From: Clostridiales bacterium DTU074
GTDB lineage: Bacteria; Bacillota; Clostridia; Caldicoprobacterales; Caldicoprobacteraceae
Reading direction: 5' to 3'
NCBI GenBank assembly: GCA_001513075.1
Contig: LFSE01000004.1
Location: forward strand, 4,214 to 66,942
Length of the DNA stretch: 62,729 bases
Each line of letters opens with the position of its first letter. The stretch's first letter is position 1. Below the pieces are notes generated by a model. That model worked only from the letters and a program-made list of their open reading frames with translations, made no database searches and was not told the origin of the DNA. Position numbers and translations under genes: made by a program. This document shows, piece by piece, positions 3 through 60,964 of the stretch.

Positions 3-3000
3 ATGATTGAACTGTACAGGAATCATGTGCTGGTATGTGGAGGCGGTGGATGTCAATCCTCCGGCTGCCAGAGTATCCGGGATCGGCTTGTCAAAAGAAT
101 AAAGGATAAGGGGATGGAAGAAGAAATAAAGGTAATTCTTACCGGCTGTATGGGCCCCTGTTCCCTGGGCCCCATGATGATAGTGTACCCTGAGGGAGTA
201 TTCTACTGCAAGCTCATTCCTGCATTTGTGGATGATATAGTAGAAAAGCATTTATATCAAGGTGTACCTGTAGAGGATTTTTTTTACAGGGATCCGTATA
301 CCGGTGAAGCGATGGCAACCGTTCATGAGATTCCCTTTTTCACCCGGCAAAGAAAAATAGCCCTGAGAAATGTTGGTATGATAGATCCATTGAATATAGA
401 TGAGTATATCGCATTCAACGGATATTTTGCCCTGGGGAAGGTACTCACCCAGCTTACTCCCAGGAAAACAATCGAAATCATAAAAGAATCCGGCTTGAGG
501 GGAAGGGGCGGGGCGGGATTCCCCACCGGACTTAAATGGGAATTTACTGCCGAAGCCCGGGGCTTTCCCAAATATGTGGTTTGTAATGCCGACGAGGGAG
601 ACCCGGGGGCTTTCATGGACAGAAGCATTATAGAAGGAGATCCCCATACGCTGATTGAAGGCATGGCCATAGCCGGATATGCCGTGGGTGCAAACCAGGG
701 ATATGTGTATATTCGGGCCGAGTATCCGATGGCGGTAAAACATCTTGAAAATGCAATAAAACAGGCAAGGGAGTACGGCTTGCTTGGCTCAGATATATTG
801 GGTACCGGCTTTGATTTTGATTTGGAGATCCGGGTGGGTGCCGGAGCATTTGTGTGCGGCGAAGAGACGGCGCTTCTGGCTTCGGTGGAAGGCCGGCGGG
901 GCGAGCCAAGGCCCAAACCCCCATTTCCTGCAAATCAGGGATTATGGAACAAACCCACGCTTCTGAACAATGTTGAGACATATGCCAACGTGCCCGCCAT
1001 AATCCTGGAAGGCCCAGAATGGTTCAGAAACATAGGAACCGAAAAAAGTCCGGGGACCAAAGTGTTCGCTCTTGCAGGTCAGGTGGAGAATACCGGTTTG
1101 GTGGAAGTGCCCATGGGGACACCGCTTGGTGACATCATATTCGACATCGGCGGTGGAATTATAGATAAAAAGGATTTCAAGGGTGCCCAAACTGGCGGTC
1201 CATCCGGAGGCTGCATTCCCGCCGACGGTTTAAATGTGCCGGTGGACTATGAATCCCTAAGGGACTGGGGAACCATAATGGGCTCCGGTGGCCTCATAGT
1301 TATGGATGAAAACACATGTATGGTAGACCTGGCTAAATTTTTCCTGGAGTTTTGCCAGGATGAGTCCTGCGGTAAGTGTGCTCCCTGCCGCCTGGGTACA
1401 AAAAGGATGCTGGAGATACTGCAGAGGATTAGTGAAGGGAAGGGCCGGGAAAGCGATATTGAGAAGCTTATCGAGCTCGGCCAGGATATTATGGACACCG
1501 CACTGTGCGGTTTGGGGCAGACTGCTCCAAATCCGGTGCTCAACACCATTCGGTATTTCAGGCATGAGTATGAAGAGCATATCAAGAAAAAATATTGCAG
1601 GGCTTCAGTATGTGCATCCCTTTTCAATGCGCCGTGTCAGAATGCCTGTCCTGCAGGAGTGGATGTACCTCAATATATAGAGTATATCCAGAGGGGCATG
1701 TATATGGAAGCGGTAAATTGCATTCGGGAGATGAATCCGTTCCCATCGGTGTGCGGCCGGGTTTGCACCCATCCCTGTGAGGCAAGGTGCAGGAGAGCCC
1801 AGTTGGATGAGCCTATGGCCATCCGCAGTTTAAAGCGGTTTGCAGGGGATTATGAGCTTGAACATGCCGATGCCTTTTACTTTGATTTTGAAAGGGAAAG
1901 AAAAGCCAAAAAAGGTAAGAAGGTGGCGGTTATAGGCGGAGGACCTGCCGGTCTTACGACAGCTTACTATCTGTCCATATGGGGATACGATGTCACTGTA
2001 TTCGAAGCTTCGCAAAGGTTGGGCGGTATGTTGAATTATGCCATTCCTCCCTATCGTCTGCCCAATGATGTACTGCATAAGGAGATTGACATCATACTCA
2101 GGTCAGGCATTAATGTGATTACCGGTGTAAAGGTAGGAGTCGATGTAAGCCTTGATGAAATAAGGAGGAACTTTGATGCCGTGTTCATGGGAATAGGTAC
2201 CCAGCAGCCCGTAAAGCTGGGGGTGAAGGGGGAAGACGCCGAGGGAGTAATGACTGCATTGGAGTTTTTGCGGATGATAAATGAAGGGAAAATACCGGAT
2301 ATCGGGAAGAAGGTTGTGGTTGTCGGAGGCGGGAGTACTGCCTTTGATGCAGCCCGATCGGCTGTAAGGCTGGGTGCCGAGGAAGTGGCCATCCTCTATA
2401 GGAGGAGCAGGTGGGATATGCCGGCACTGCCCGAAGAAAAGGTACATGCTGCCGAAGAGGGGGTTAAGATCTTCGACTACATTGCACCCCTGGAGGTTAT
2501 AACCGATCAGTACGGCAAAATGGAAGGGCTGCGTTGTATACGTATGGCGAAGGGCGAATTTGATAATACTGCCAGGCGAAAACCGGTGCCCATAGAGGGT
2601 TCCGAATTTCGGATGGATGCGGATACGTTGCTCATAGCCATAGGCGCCCAAGGAGAAGTGGAAGACTTCAAGGGTATAAAAACCACCCGCTGGAAGACAT
2701 TTGAGGTTAATCCGGAAAGCTTTGAAACTTCCCTAAAAGGCGTGTTTGCCGGTGGAGATTGTGTACGCGGACCCGACACTGTTATACAGTCCATAGCTGA
2801 TGGTCGGAAAGCAGCTTTAGCCATTGATCGCTATTTGGGGGGCAATCAAATGGAGGTTGAAGAAGCACGCAAAGAAAGAAAGCGGCAGTACTATGCCTCG
2901 ATTATTGAACACGAGCGGGCAAGGCTTAGAATACCCGAACTTGCTCCTGAAGAAAGGAAGAGAAACTTTAAAGAGATAGAATTGCCCTTCGACCAGGAAG

Positions 3001-3047
3001 CCTGTCGGCAGGAGGCACTTCGCTGCCTGCGTTGCGATGTGAAATGA
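3..3047 (+). CDS. hydB: NADH-dehydrogenase-like subunit of electron-bifurcating [FeFe] hydrogenase (HydB/NuoF), C-terminally fused to a GltD/NfnB-like flavoprotein
   Basis: The 1014-residue protein is the diaphorase subunit partnering the hydrogenase encoded next. Residues 1-95 are a thioredoxin-like [2Fe-2S] domain (C12, C17, C49, C53). Residues 120-340 form the NuoF FMN/NADH domain (GRGGAGFP at 167-174). An SLBB-like part follows, then a [4Fe-4S] site (C456, C459, C462, C502). From about residue 530 the usual ferredoxin tail of HydB is replaced by a complete GltD/NfnB-like half: cysteine clusters C537-C549 and C584-C596, a FAD Rossmann motif GGGPAG near 645, and a second nucleotide motif GGGSTAFDAA near 775. 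It ends with CLRC. Family knowledge: HydB takes electrons from NADH; the fused half resembles the NADPH-handling subunit of Nfn. The ATG lies two bases inside the window edge, so its RBS is not visible, but MIELYRNHVLVC is a normal HydB/NuoF N-terminus. The hydC-like subunit is probably upstream, outside the window. Confidence 0.88.
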   Translation: MIELYRNHVLVCGGGGCQSSGCQSIRDRLVKRIKDKGMEEEIKVILTGCMGPCSLGPMMIVYPEGVFYCKLIPAFVDDIVEKHLYQGVPVEDFFYRDPYTGEAMATVHEIPFFTRQRKIALRNVGMIDPLNIDEYIAFNGYFALGKVLTQLTPRKTIEIIKESGLRGRGGAGFPTGLKWEFTAEARGFPKYVVCNADEGDPGAFMDRSIIEGDPHTLIEGMAIAGYAVGANQGYVYIRAEYPMAVKHLENAIKQAREYGLLGSDILGTGFDFDLEIRVGAGAFVCGEETALLASVEGRRGEPRPKPPFPANQGLWNKPTLLNNVETYANVPAIILEGPEWFRNIGTEKSPGTKVFALAGQVENTGLVEVPMGTPLGDIIFDIGGGIIDKKDFKGAQTGGPSGGCIPADGLNVPVDYESLRDWGTIMGSGGLIVMDENTCMVDLAKFFLEFCQDESCGKCAPCRLGTKRMLEILQRISEGKGRESDIEKLIELGQDIMDTALCGLGQTAPNPVLNTIRYFRHEYEEHIKKKYCRASVCASLFNAPCQNACPAGVDVPQYIEYIQRGMYMEAVNCIREMNPFPSVCGRVCTHPCEARCRRAQLDEPMAIRSLKRFAGDYELEHADAFYFDFERERKAKKGKKVAVIGGGPAGLTTAYYLSIWGYDVTVFEASQRLGGMLNYAIPPYRLPNDVLHKEIDIILRSGINVITGVKVGVDVSLDEIRRNFDAVFMGIGTQQPVKLGVKGEDAEGVMTALEFLRMINEGKIPDIGKKVVVVGGGSTAFDAARSAVRLGAEEVAILYRRSRWDMPALPEEKVHAAEEGVKIFDYIAPLEVITDQYGKMEGLRCIRMAKGEFDNTARRKPVPIEGSEFRMDADTLLIAIGAQGEVEDFKGIKTTRWKTFEVNPESFETSLKGVFAGGDCVRGPDTVIQSIADGRKAALAIDRYLGGNQMEVEEARKERKRQYYASIIEHERARLRIPELAPEERKRNFKEIELPFDQEACRQEALRCLRCDVK

Positions 3048-34143: not shown

Positions 34144-35529
34144 TTAGGAAACGGCTTCTTCCCCTTTTGATTTATTCTGTTGTTCTAATTCCTGCCATTT
34201 AATATCGGCAATGGTTTTCCAATTGCTGGCTATTTCTTCGATTCTATCCTTTGTGTTACCGTGCAGTATTGCTTCGGCACCCTGGTGGGTTCCGGCAGCT
34301 CCCGATTCCGCTATTATATTTCTCAGTGCTTGAGGCACGTCGATGAGGGGGCACGGCCTTAAAAGGTTGTGGCTGAAAGGCTGTCTTTTCTGATATGCGG
34401 CAAACAGGGGAGAACTCAAAATCTGTTTCAATGACTTGCCTTTTATGTTGTCAGCCGCAAAGTGGACGAAGGCACAGGGCTCAACGTCTCCGGCAGCATT
34501 TATATGGAAATAATATTTTCCCCCTGCGATGCATCCCTGGGTCATCTGTCCGTCATTCCAGAAATCGATTATTTGTATTGGTTTGTTGGTCCGAATATAG
34601 CGCACTCTGTCGATAAGCCAGGCCCTTTGTTCGGGCTTTAGGACAAGGGAAAAATCCGGCTTGCGTCCTATGGGCATATAATGGAAGGACCAGCCGTATA
34701 GAGCGCCCTTATCTATCATGGTGTCTATGAATTCATCTGAAAATACCTCACGGTAATTCTGGCTGGTTACGGTAAGGCTGATGCCAAATATGACGCCATG
34801 TTTCTTGAGATGGTCCATGGCTGTCAGTATTCTGTCATAAACTCCGATACCCCGCCTGCCGTCCGTGAATTCCCGCCCTCCCTCCAGGCTGATGGCAGGG
34901 GTTATATTGCCTAACTGCTGCATCTTTTCGGCGGTGATGTAATCAATTAATGTGCCGTTGGTATATATCATGAAAGCCGCATCATCATGTTTTTTGCACA
35001 GTTGGAGAAGGTGAGGCCACATAAGGGGTTCTCCGCCTGACATTACGAAAAAATAGATGCCCAGCTCTTTGGCTTCGGTTATTATTCTGTCGACTTCTTC
35101 AAAGCTTAAGCTTTGGTGGCTTACATAGGCACCGGCCCAGCAGCCTTTGCATTTGAGGTTGCAGCTGCTTGTAGGATCAATCAGGATGGTATAGGGTATG
35201 CTGTATCCAAATTCCTGTGAAAGCTTGACGTGTTTGGGTATACCCATCAGGCTTGCGTGTATAAAAAGATTTACCAGAAAGCGTTGCTGTACGCTTTCAT
35301 TTATCTCTGTCAGGATGCGGTTGAAATAAATTTTCATAACCGGGCTGGTTTCGAACAGCAGCTTTAACTGCTGTATCAGCTGACGGTGACGGGGCGCTAT
35401 CGGCGCCCTGGACAAAAGATCAAGGGCTCGCGGGACGTTGGATAGGGGGTCCTGCTTTAAATAATTGAGCAGTTGACTGAAGATTTTTTCACCAAGGTAT
35501 TGTTTGGCAATTCTGAAACTGGATAACAT
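34144..35529 (-). CDS. Radical SAM protein with SPASM-like C-terminus, function unknown
   Basis: 461 residues. A ~110-residue helical N-terminal region precedes the radical SAM barrel, whose cluster motif is CNLKCKGC (C123, C127, C130), followed by VMSGGEPLMWPHLL. A C-terminal cysteine set (GCIAGGKYYFHINAAG, DVEPCAFVHFA, LRPCPLIDVPQAL) resembles a SPASM auxiliary cluster region. The sequence after the motif, CWAGAYVSHQSLSFEEV, recalls a clostridial family annotated only as 'radical SAM protein'. The minus-strand start follows AAGGAGCAGG. It lies 109 bp downstream of dapB, perhaps in the lysine-regulated transcript, but nothing in it points to lysine metabolism. Confidence 0.75.
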   Translation of the reverse strand: MLSSFRIAKQYLGEKIFSQLLNYLKQDPLSNVPRALDLLSRAPIAPRHRQLIQQLKLLFETSPVMKIYFNRILTEINESVQQRFLVNLFIHASLMGIPKHVKLSQEFGYSIPYTILIDPTSSCNLKCKGCWAGAYVSHQSLSFEEVDRIITEAKELGIYFFVMSGGEPLMWPHLLQLCKKHDDAAFMIYTNGTLIDYITAEKMQQLGNITPAISLEGGREFTDGRRGIGVYDRILTAMDHLKKHGVIFGISLTVTSQNYREVFSDEFIDTMIDKGALYGWSFHYMPIGRKPDFSLVLKPEQRAWLIDRVRYIRTNKPIQIIDFWNDGQMTQGCIAGGKYYFHINAAGDVEPCAFVHFAADNIKGKSLKQILSSPLFAAYQKRQPFSHNLLRPCPLIDVPQALRNIIAESGAAGTHQGAEAILHGNTKDRIEEIASNWKTIADIKWQELEQQNKSKGEEAVS

Positions 35530-35620: not shown

Positions 35621-35652
35621 TTACAGTTCAAAGGAATATTACAGTTCAAAGG
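35621..35652 (-). repeat. 18-bp-period tandem duplication at the dapB 3' end
   Basis: TTACAGTTCAAAGG occurs at 35621-35634 and again at 35639-35652. The second copy holds the last codons and stop of dapB; the first repeats FEL-stop just beyond it. Confidence 0.75.
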
Positions 35653-36859
35653 CCATCATAAGGGCTTCCAGGGCTTTCTTTTCCTCCTGATGATCAATGA
35701 TAAATGAAACTTTGGTTTCGGACGTGGTTATTGCCTTGATGTTGATGTTTTGCTCGGCCATAACGGTAAATATCCTGGCCGCTATGCCCGGCTGATATTC
35801 CATTCCCGTACCTTCAACCGACAATTTAACTATTTGGCCGTTCGTGCTCATGCTTATGGTGGGGAAAGATGTCTGGAGCTCGTTTATCACCGTTAATGCC
35901 CTTTGGAGATCCTTCCGGGGCAGAGAAAAGGAAATATTCACCATTTTATCTGCAGGTGCGGTCTGGCTTATCATATCCACGTTTATATTTTCCTTTGCCA
36001 GCGCCTGGAATACCCGGGCCACCGCATTGCTGTCATGGGGTATGTTATTGACGGTGACCAGCGCGTCCTTATTGCTGGAGCTGATATTGGTGACGGCTGA
36101 CTGCTGGGTCAACATATCCTTCATGCCGTACAGCCCCGGCGGTTTGGTGACGATGTATTTGCAAGCCCTTAGAGCACCTAAAGCGAATATCTGCCTGGAG
36201 AAGGCCGTATGAGTTATCTTAAGGACCTCATCATCACCGGCGAATAGTATCGTATGTTCACCCGGCATAGTACCGCCCCGGATGGCATGTATACCTATCT
36301 CCGATTTAGAGCGTTTATCATGTTTTGAATGCCTGCCGTAGACGTAGTTTTTCGAATAAAGCAGCGTCTCGTTAATTGCATCTGCAAGGGCATAGGCGGT
36401 GCCGCTTGGCGAATCCAGCTTTTGATTGTGGTGCTGTTCAATGATCTCTATGTCAAATAAATTGCCCAGAGCCGATGCGGCATTTCTTGCCAGCTCCAGC
36501 ATTACGTTAACTCCCAGGGACATATTGGCCGATTGAAAAACAGAAATGCTGTGAGAAGCCTTTGCTATTAAGTCCAAATCGTCCTTGGAAAAACCGGTAG
36601 TAGCAATGACAAGCGGAATATTTCTGTTTACTGCATAATCCAGCATATTGGGAAGGGCAGCAGGTACTGAGAAATCCACAATGACATCCGCATCTTCACT
36701 GCATTCTTCAAGGGAGCCGTATGTAGGAAAGGGATTGCTTTTTTTGTCGGAGAATTTGTCGATACCTGCAACCACATGTATGGTTGGGTCTGAAGCAGCC
36801 GCTGCCGCAACTGCCTGACCCATTCTTCCATTGCAACCGTGTATTATAATTCTTATCAT
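35639..36859 (-). CDS. dapB: 4-hydroxy-tetrahydrodipicolinate reductase with C-terminal tandem ACT domains
   Basis: 406 residues against the usual ~250. Residues 1-250 are a complete DapB: HGCNGRMGQ nucleotide motif, ATTGF, the catalytic HH-containing EQHHNQKLDSPSGTA (141-154) and IRGGTMPGEHT. After a short linker, residues ~265-335 and ~342-406 form two ACT domains closely resembling the regulatory pair of aspartokinase (NINVDMISQTA, VNISFSLPRKDLQRAL, GIAARIFTVMAEQNINIKAITTSETKVSFIID, described by parts). DapB reduces HTPA in the diaminopimelate/lysine route; the fused ACT pair predicts allosteric control by an amino acid, likely lysine or threonine. The gene follows dapA and asd on a lysine-riboswitch transcript. 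I see no frameshift: one frame runs through the junction. Confidence 0.9.
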   Translation of the reverse strand: MIRIIIHGCNGRMGQAVAAAAASDPTIHVVAGIDKFSDKKSNPFPTYGSLEECSEDADVIVDFSVPAALPNMLDYAVNRNIPLVIATTGFSKDDLDLIAKASHSISVFQSANMSLGVNVMLELARNAASALGNLFDIEIIEQHHNQKLDSPSGTAYALADAINETLLYSKNYVYGRHSKHDKRSKSEIGIHAIRGGTMPGEHTILFAGDDEVLKITHTAFSRQIFALGALRACKYIVTKPPGLYGMKDMLTQQSAVTNISSSNKDALVTVNNIPHDSNAVARVFQALAKENINVDMISQTAPADKMVNISFSLPRKDLQRALTVINELQTSFPTISMSTNGQIVKLSVEGTGMEYQPGIAARIFTVMAEQNINIKAITTSETKVSFIIDHQEEKKALEALMMAFEL

Positions 36860-36885: not shown

Positions 36886-37782
36886 TTACTTATTTTGCTC
36901 CTGTATTTCAAGGCCGTACTCAATCATCCGCTGTTTCAACACTTCCAAATTGGATTCTGACATATCGGTTAAGGGCATGCGAAGCTTGCCCACATTCATT
37001 CCCATCAGGTTCATGGCGGTTTTGACGGGGATTGGGTTAACCTCCAAAAACAGCGCTTCAATCAGAGGAAAGAGCTTAAACTGGAGTTTCCGGCTTCCTT
37101 CGATATCGCCGTTTAAGAACTTGGCTACCATGTCGTGGGTATCCCGGGGGGCGATGTTGGCTACCACCGAGATAACCCCCTTGCCGCCTACCGATAACAG
37201 GGGTACTACCATGTCGTCATTTCCCGAGTAGATATCAAGAGCCCCCTCGCACAAGCGGGCCATGTTAACCACCTGGGCTATATCCCCGCTGGCCTCCTTT
37301 ATGCCTACGATGTTGTCGATCTTTGATAGTTCCTTTAAGGTGGCCGGGGTTACGTTCAAACCGGTTCTGGAAGGAACGTTGTAAATTATAATGGGAATAT
37401 GGACCGCATCAGCTATGGCCGCATAGTGCTTAATCAAGCCCTTTTGTGTAGTTTTATTATAATAGGGGGTGACAATGAGCAGGGCATCGGCTCCCAACCT
37501 TTCGGCTTCCTTTGAATCTTCAATGACGGCAGCAGTGTTATATCCCCCCGTTCCGGCTATGACCGGCACCCTTTTTGCAGCCTTTTCAACGGTGAAGCCT
37601 ATGACCGAATATCTCTCCTCCTTGGTCATTGTGGGAGGTTCTCCGGTTGTACCGCAGGCAAGCAATGCGTCAGTGCCTTCCTGGATCTGGAACTGGATAA
37701 GCCTGGCCAGGGATTCAAAATTTATGCCATCTTCGGTAAAAGGAGTAACCATGGCAACACAGGAACCCGTAAAGACACTCAT
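36886..37782 (-). CDS. dapA: 4-hydroxy-tetrahydrodipicolinate synthase
   Basis: 298 residues from the ATG at 37782, RBS AAGGAG; a GTG at 37794 overlaps that site. Condenses pyruvate with aspartate semialdehyde, the branch point to diaminopimelate and lysine. Seen: [51 protein letters not shown] (catalytic Tyr) and [12 protein letters not shown] with the Schiff-base Lys. Gap of 26 bp to dapB and 34 bp from asd. Confidence 0.97.
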
Positions 37783-37816
37783 CTTTTTTATCACTCCTTA
37801 AGAAAATTTAGACAGA

Positions 37817-38836
37817 TTAACGGTTAAGCCGGCCGTTCTCCCAGTATTCGATCAGCTTTTGTGCTATTTGAACGGTATTTGTAGCGGCGCCCTTGCGTAT
37901 ATTATCTGCCACTACCCACAGGTTTACACCGCTGGCAACACTGTCATCCCTTCGGATACGACCAACAAATACCTCATCCCTGTTTTCGGCATATATCGGC
38001 ATAGGGTATTCGTTGTTCTTAGGATTATCCACCACAATTATACCGGGGGAATTTGCCAGCACTTCCCTGAGTTCATTTAAGTCAAAGCCCCTTTCAAACT
38101 CTACATTGATGGATTCAGAATGGCCGTGGAAAACCGGGACACGTACCGTGGTTGCGGTGATCTTAAGGCTGTGGTCGCCCAATATCTTCTGCGTTTCCTG
38201 AATCATCTTCATTTCCTCTTTGGTGTATCCGTTGTCAAGGAAATCATCTATATGAGGGATACAGTTGGCGAAAATGGGATGGGGGAATTTTAGCAGGGTC
38301 GTTTTCCCCTGTATTCCATTTTGAAGATCCAGATAGCCATTTAAACCTGCCCCTGATACGGCCTGATATGTGGAGTATACAATTCGCTTTATTTTATAGC
38401 GCCGGTGCAACGGATTCAATACCACAACCGCCTGAATGGTGGAACAGTTGGGATTCGCAATTATTCCCTTGTGTTTCAGAATTTCATCGGGATTGACCTC
38501 CGGAACCACCAGAGGTACCTCATCGTCCATCCTCCAGGCGCTGCTATTATCTATAACGACGATACCTTTCGAAGCCGCTATCGGAGCGTACTTTCTGCTG
38601 ACGCTTGCGCCGGCCGAGAACAGGGCGATGTCGATTTCTTTATCATCAAAGCAGGTCTCGGTAAGCTCAAGTATGGTATATTCCTTTCCCATAAATTCCA
38701 AAGTTTTCCCGGCAGAACGGGCCGATGCGAACAGATAACAATTTGACAAAGGCAGCTGTCTTTCCTCCAAAACCTCCAAAAATTTACGGCCTACCATTCC
38801 GGTTGCTCCAACAATGGCTATATTGTACTTTTTCAT
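37817..38836 (-). CDS. asd: Aspartate-semialdehyde dehydrogenase
   Basis: 339 residues from the ATG at 38836 with RBS GGGAGG (an in-frame GTG at 38851 is part of the RBS). Reduces aspartyl phosphate to aspartate semialdehyde with NADPH. Seen: IVGATGMVGRKFLEVLEER, SAGASVSRKYAP, the nucleophile Cys in IANPNCSTIQAVVVLNPLH and VRVPVFHGHSESINVEFE. First gene of the asd-dapA-dapB operon behind the L-box leader. The upstream kinase gene lysC is not in this window. Confidence 0.97.
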   Translation of the reverse strand: MKKYNIAIVGATGMVGRKFLEVLEERQLPLSNCYLFASARSAGKTLEFMGKEYTILELTETCFDDKEIDIALFSAGASVSRKYAPIAASKGIVVIDNSSAWRMDDEVPLVVPEVNPDEILKHKGIIANPNCSTIQAVVVLNPLHRRYKIKRIVYSTYQAVSGAGLNGYLDLQNGIQGKTTLLKFPHPIFANCIPHIDDFLDNGYTKEEMKMIQETQKILGDHSLKITATTVRVPVFHGHSESINVEFERGFDLNELREVLANSPGIIVVDNPKNNEYPMPIYAENRDEVFVGRIRRDDSVASGVNLWVVADNIRKGAATNTVQIAQKLIEYWENGRLNR

Positions 38837-38944
38837 GGCGTTTCCTCCCACATAATATTATGAATTATCATAATCCGATCAAGGTCAAACCGGCCCAATA
38901 CCATCATATGCGGATATTCAGCGGTTGTGACTTTATCGGTTAAC

Positions 38945-39039: not shown

Positions 39040-39215
39040 GAAAGCAGTTAGCGCTCCACCATTCATGAATGGTGACAGTCCCAGGGCTGTTAACCCTGAG
39101 CCCAGGACATGGACGACGGGACATCTCATATCCTTCGGCACCTTTTCCTTTCAGCGGCTTTCATCAAATCCCGTTTTCTCCAGCGTCTTACTCATAAAAG
39201 GTGCACCTCTAAACT
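39040..39215 (-). promoter_or_regulatory. Lysine riboswitch (L-box) controlling asd-dapA-dapB
   Basis: Read on the minus strand, the leader holds the conserved L-box segments in order: AGAGGTGC, GAGTA, TGGAGAAA, GCTGAAAGG, GTGCCGAAGG, GGGACTGTCA and TGGAGCGCTA, matching the Bacillus lysC leader in order and spacing. Lysine binding is known to favour the terminator just downstream, shutting off lysine synthesis. Confidence 0.93.
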
Positions 39216-39238
39216 GCTCTATGCTATTTATTTTTTTA

Positions 39239-60734: not shown

Positions 60735-60811
60735 CAACCTAGCCATTTAATGAATTTGGCTTGATTTTAAAATCTGCCATAATTTGAACTGAATAGATAT
60801 AAAGCTTTTCA

Positions 60812-60955
60812 ATCTTAAGCGCTGAATTCTTTTTTAAAAGAAGCGGGGGAACCAATTATTGGGGTGAATCGCCTTTGGTTGCAAGCATATGACCAAAGGT
60901 GTAGGGCTATACCCTTCGGCCCGAATCCGTCAGCTAACTCCGTAAGCGTGGCAAG
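60812..60955 (+). promoter_or_regulatory. Cyclic-di-AMP riboswitch (ydaO/yuaA class)
   Basis: The conserved segments are present in order: CGCTGAATTC, GAAGCGGGGGAACCA, TTGGGGTGAATCG, a central stem GGTTGCAAGC...ACCAAAGG, GTAGGGCTATACCCTTCGGCCCGAATCCGTCAGCTAACTC (described in parts) and CGTAAGCG. c-di-AMP binding is known to stop transcription in the Bacillus ydaO leader, and the terminator that follows fits that design. It precedes the opp genes. Confidence 0.93.
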
Positions 60956-60964
60956 GGGAGGTTG

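Follow-up and report, generated by a model that had tools for sequence, protein, structure and literature searches.

A dihydrodipicolinate reductase fused to an aspartokinase-type ACT pair, and ACT pairs encoded beside dapB, in Clostridia

Descriptions of feedback in the lysine branch usually place it at aspartokinase and DapA and, in Gram-positives, at a riboswitch. To our knowledge, DapB is generally treated as an unregulated step. ACT domains are found fused to metabolic enzymes such as 3PGDH, threonine deaminase and phenylalanine hydroxylase. The protein described here likewise has a regulatory ACT-type module on an enzyme, but those enzymes use ACT types of their own, whereas here the double-ACT module of aspartokinase is placed on another enzyme of its own pathway. 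In acetohydroxyacid synthase, the catalytic gene is followed by the gene of a small ACT regulatory subunit, IlvN/IlvH. This arrangement offers a possible functional model for the stand-alone ACT pairs reported below, although enzyme and ACT family differ.

The regulatory subunit of class II (alpha2beta2) aspartokinases, such as LysC beta of C. glutamicum (2dtj/3aaw), shares with the present ACT pair its fold (1.2–1.7 Å), its length, the TSE motif and the equivalent of Gln298. It differs in that the pair studied here is joined to DapB or encoded behind it rather than belonging to a kinase, has lost the DKPG loop of the first ACT domain (ACT1), and, in the fusions, carries E349, E354, K375 and T382 in the second (ACT2). 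Furthermore, the protein shares with DapB (4-hydroxy-tetrahydrodipicolinate reductase, TIGR00036) the full length of the catalytic protein, its motifs and its fold; the solved DapBs matched end near residue 252, where the ACT pair begins, and none is reported with such a pair.

The fusion gene and its operon

The window, a stretch of 62,729 nucleotides from Clostridiales bacterium DTU074 (contig LFSE01000004.1), contains a gene in which a complete DapB continues into an ACT pair (Table 1). Pfam detects DapB_N (residues 2–113), DapB_C (116–250) and two copies of ACT_9 (8e-31). Both DapB domains (PF01113 and PF05173) are thus present, and the NCBIfam dapB model TIGR00036 scores 215 bits over residues 1–250, above its curated cut-off of 122. 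NCBIfam aspartate kinase models match residues 248–406 (PRK06635.1-4, 126 bits); the best of them cover only about 246–406, residues 1–252 being DapB, and the catalytic domain of the amino-acid kinases is absent from the protein. The nucleotide-binding motif GxxGxMG is intact (GCNGRMG), as is the active-site motif HHxxKxDxPSGTA, which reads HHNQKLDSPSGTA / HHNQKLDSPSGTAY, and the core of the DapB motifs is invariant across 22 fusions. The DapB part is full-length with motifs and fold kept, and is predicted to be catalytic.

Table 1. Features of the fusion gene and its operon, in window coordinates
Feature	Position	Strand	Remarks
DapB-ACT-ACT fusion gene	35639–36859	(-)	Uninterrupted ORF, 406 aa; profile matches and model
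DapB part, residues 1–252	36104–36859	(-)	Profiles, motifs, fold (Z 30 to 5us6/1arz)
Aspartokinase-type ACT pair, residues 253–406	35642–36103	(-)	Profiles and fold
Gln299	35963–35965	(-)	Equivalent of C. glutamicum aspartokinase Gln298
Thr379-Ser380-Glu381	35717–35725	(-)	Equals C. glutamicum T380-S381-E382 (T344/S345 region of E. coli AKIII)
dapA	36886–37794	(-)	Same operon as the fusion
asd	37817–38851	(-)	Same operon as the fusion
Lysine riboswitch heading the operon	39041–39219	(-)	116 bits

An AlphaFold2 model of the fusion reached a pLDDT of 86 and a pTM of 0.65, the latter leaving the angle between the DapB and ACT parts uncertain. Modelled residues 1–252 match the DapB fold, while residues 253–406 superpose on 2re1, 3aaw, 3s1t and 2zho at 1.2–1.7 Å (1.2 Å over 148 residues for 2re1, 1.6 Å over 154 for 3aaw) and have, in this predicted structure, the double-ACT fold of an aspartokinase regulatory subunit. 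The last DapB helix spans residues 246–253 and the first ACT strand starts at 258, hence there is practically no linker. Reading frame, Pfam, NCBIfam and model together confirm the complete DapB running into an aspartokinase-like ACT pair that the preliminary description had proposed. The interval it gave for this finding, 35639–36070, is indeed the ACT-pair end of the reading frame, but the pair starts slightly upstream, at about 36103.

The operon order is asd-dapA-dapB, with the fusion gene last, and the RNA leader mentioned in the preliminary description proved to be a lysine riboswitch (Table 1). Lysine riboswitches were present in 10 of 13 sampled loci with dapB-ACT or dapB-kinase arrangements. 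Directly downstream of the fusion lies a gene for a Radical SAM/SPASM protein (34144–35529, minus strand) without a match at NCBIfam cut-offs; it was rejected as a member of the system, as among the loci compared it adjoins the fusion only within the genus. Separate from the fusion, the window also holds a c-di-AMP riboswitch (RF00379, 97 bits, 60810–60963, plus strand). In another fusion genome (G009, locus L050), two purine riboswitches (2128–2227 and 2917–3017) lie about 800 bases apart downstream of the fusion.

Distribution and history of the ACT pair

A survey for the DapB-ACT-ACT architecture showed it to be recurrent. Among 30 genomes of the window's order, 23 carry the fusion, five have a DapB without the pair and two, which are less complete, yielded no DapB. 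The fusion is present in a one-contig genome of 3.1 Mb from the same order and in the isolate Caldicoprobacter algeriensis; together with the count of 23 in 30, these rule out an assembly artefact or chance fusion. It also occurs in other families (genomes G047, G063, G064 and G090), in one further Clostridia MAG and in three MAGs labelled Spirochaete. A wide occurrence in Spirochaetes was not supported: within one order the fusion was found in one of 197 genomes, the query itself, which points to transfer or misbinning. A literature search covering little of the subscription literature returned no report of an allosteric DapB with an ACT pair. One genome (G028) holds two copies of the fusion (L019 and G028:C24:11324-12451). 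Two faecal contigs labelled ‘Bacteriophage sp.’ (MT835629 and MT836485) match dapB and the ACT pair, and are probably bacterial DNA inside virus preparations.

The preliminary description had noticed the pair on DapB but missed a wider arrangement in which it is a separate gene beside dapB. A class-wide ACT-pair search of 392 genomes, with kinase-linked cases excluded, found at least 45 Clostridia genomes with a short stand-alone ACT-pair reading frame. From the search with the ACT pair only, 40 stand-alone loci were taken irrespective of their neighbours, and 37 of these lie directly behind dapB in the order (asd-)dapA-dapB-ACT; the other three follow a dapB-linked aspartokinase. Across all 58 stand-alone cases, a median of 28 nt separates the dapB stop from the first modelled ACT residue; as some of the 58 were found via DapB, the 40 loci are the unbiased sample. 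Outside the class, both checked genomes of one family (f161) have a separate ACT pair behind dapB. Three stand-alone pairs of other families had no dapB within the fetched stretch, and both of those that were read (L226, 3005–3481; L227, 2738–3292) have the canonical DKPG loop, with neither dapB nor an aspartokinase in the fetched stretch.

Still other Clostridia have a full aspartokinase at the same place, mostly after a dapH-like reading frame. The gap between dapB and the aspartokinase in L042–L044, L165 and L169 holds a reading frame of roughly 730 bp, which on a reading of its sequence looks like a tetrahydrodipicolinate N-acetyltransferase (dapH). In family f54 (L165, 3091–4806; L169, 2326–4020; L170, 2180–3896), an intact aspartokinase is directly followed by a second ACT pair, which stands alone and belongs to the lineage of that kinase; it may be a beta subunit derived from gene duplication and not from an internal start.

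Fused ACT pairs formed one group in the ACT tree (SH-aLRT 92–95). In the DapB tree, a single clade of fused DapBs was rejected (p-AU 0.001), and pair-less DapBs (G008, G012, G020 and G023) nest among fused ones, suggesting that the pair was long kept and cleanly lost several times. One Clostridia MAG (L085) has a DapB that is placed with those accompanied by stand-alone pairs; this is probably an independent second fusion, although the long branch makes the placement unsure. Both trees are compatible with a history of repeated loss and transfer, together with at least one probable second fusion (L085). The fusions of family f2 (L017, L022, L023, L024 and L027) have a strongly diverged ACT pair, with a branch of 1.7.

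When DapG kinases served as outgroup, fused, dapB-linked and LysC-type pairs came together in a group that left out the stand-alone pairs; with these kinases and long-branch rows removed, one side of the tree united fused and stand-alone pairs (support 88). An AU test did not reject a grouping of fused pairs with dapB-linked kinases (p 0.29). The branching varies with the outgroup, and a simple route from kinase to stand-alone to fused pair is one possible order of events. In outline, the ACT pair would trace back to the regulatory portion of an aspartokinase of class II type, a kinase whose gene ends the dap operon in related Clostridia. The pair would have been kept without the kinase, retained as a separate reading frame behind dapB in many lineages and fused in that of the window.

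Residues of the effector site

In C. glutamicum aspartokinase, the exchange Q298G causes deregulation, and the T380, S381 and E382 region is among the listed resistance or deregulating positions (review PMC10464499). The window protein has both the TSE motif and the Gln298 equivalent. Q299 is kept in 23 of 25 fusions, and T379, S380 and E381 are nearly invariant in fusions outside family f2 (T379 and S380 invariant in A1); in f2, TSE has become TSN or TSS with loss of the Glu. The DKPG loop of ACT1 (Asp274, Gly277, Ala279) was not found in the window protein, which has HDSN and Val280. Indeed, the loop (D274-K-P-G277-x-A279) is gone, with loss of Gly277, in fused pairs, stand-alone pairs and the pairs of dapB-linked kinases, whereas all 11 LysC-type kinases of these bacteria retain its Pro, Gly and Ala.

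Other positions are conserved in the fusions, namely E349 (23/25), E354 (23/25), K375 (20/25) and T382 (19/20 outside f2). In ACT2 these lie where strand 1 ends, in the loop after it and around strand 2, all of them ligand-binding elements of ACT domains. Stand-alone pairs, too, often have K375; E349, E354 and T382 are specific to fusions. The ACT part evolves under purifying selection, its dN/dS ranging from 0.05 to 0.25 in the eight scorable pairs of nine.

Judged from these residues, the effector site seems to have been kept but re-specified. Given the loss of the Gly277/Ala279 loop and the changed pocket residues of ACT2, this pair and class II aspartokinases may bind different ligands; threonine binding as in those kinases is unlikely, and lysine or DAP would be likely ligands.

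The ACT pair as a candidate regulator of DapB

The ACT pair is probably a feedback-regulatory, effector-binding module of DapB, acting in cis in the fusion and, where it is encoded separately, as a partner subunit. Linkage of dapB and the ACT pair is conserved in many families, for which regulation of DapB is the simplest interpretation, and the fusion together with the separate sensor gene behind dapB suggests that DapB owns a feedback sensor. Lysine feedback on DapB, as the preliminary description had it, is plausible. The pair is attached to the last helix of the nucleotide-binding domain. ACT pairs of neighbouring subunits would dimerise, and the end product of the branch, most likely lysine or meso-DAP, would bind at the ACT-ACT interface, shifting the position of the nucleotide-binding domain and lowering activity. 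This route via the ACT dimer interface is suggested by the attachment point and by the way aspartokinase employs such pairs. Together with the riboswitch, this would place the pathway under control at the level of the transcript as well as the enzyme. More tentatively, the kinase-less ACT pair found in many Clostridia and in at least one lineage besides may be a dedicated DapB subunit responding to an effector other than that of aspartokinase, such as meso-DAP. Against a regulator count the five genomes of the same order with a pair-less DapB, the loss of the DKPG loop throughout the dapB-linked group and the divergence of family f2, in which the Glu of TSE is gone.

The loss of the ACT1 effector loop, the altered ACT2 pocket and the dispensability of the pair, which sister genomes have lost, would fit an effector-free module that merely assembles or stabilises DapB through ACT dimerisation. 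This is unlikely, however, given that T379, S380, mostly E381 and Gln299 stay conserved, and that new conserved charged residues (E349, E354, K375) have appeared at ligand-binding elements. A functionless relic of a once-useful regulatory half is the least probable explanation: it agrees with the repeated loss within the order and the strong divergence of f2, but not with the low dN/dS of the ACT part, its invariant motif residues and its upkeep in many families.

The pair could also act in trans on aspartokinase like a free class II beta subunit, with DapB as a carrier or tether, as class II aspartokinases use such a pair as beta subunit and family f54 has an aspartokinase and an extra ACT pair in tandem. 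The check for separate aspartokinases with ACT pairs called for in the preliminary description found two complete ones in the source genome, a DapG-type (PRK08210, 595 bits) and a YclM-type (PRK09034, 556 bits), which rules out the fusion pair as the genome's sole aspartokinase regulatory domain; the fused pair is nearest to a third type, PRK06635. Genomes with stand-alone pairs may have only a YclM-type kinase (e.g. G053, G151 and G273) or only a LysC-type (e.g. G044, G205 and G223), and fusion genomes have DapG with YclM, DapG with LysC-type, or DapG alone (G009 and G018). There is thus no constant kinase for the pair to act on, and nearly all sampled stand-alone pairs (37/40) follow dapB instead of an aspartokinase gene. 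The aspartokinase type varies, and what stays the same is DapB, as neighbour or as fusion partner; this favours a regulator of DapB and makes a trans-acting beta subunit quite improbable. Within the order, a LysC-type kinase is present in all five pair-less genomes and in seven of the 23 fusion genomes (Fisher p 0.008, uncorrected for relatedness), and the association of this kinase with absence of the pair is only suggestive.

The kinase-linked, stand-alone, fused and lost states all exist in living relatives, hence the step is directly testable, and family f2 (TSN/TSS) provides a natural contrast for effector comparison. The locus clearly shows a regulatory module that has passed from one enzyme of a pathway to another. 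If the pair does regulate DapB, this enzyme would be a point of control in the synthesis of lysine and peptidoglycan precursors, which would matter for lysine production strains and for DapB as a drug target, and would supply a missing layer of control for lysine and cell-wall DAP in these bacteria, including the cellulose-degrading Acetivibrio and Ruminiclostridium.
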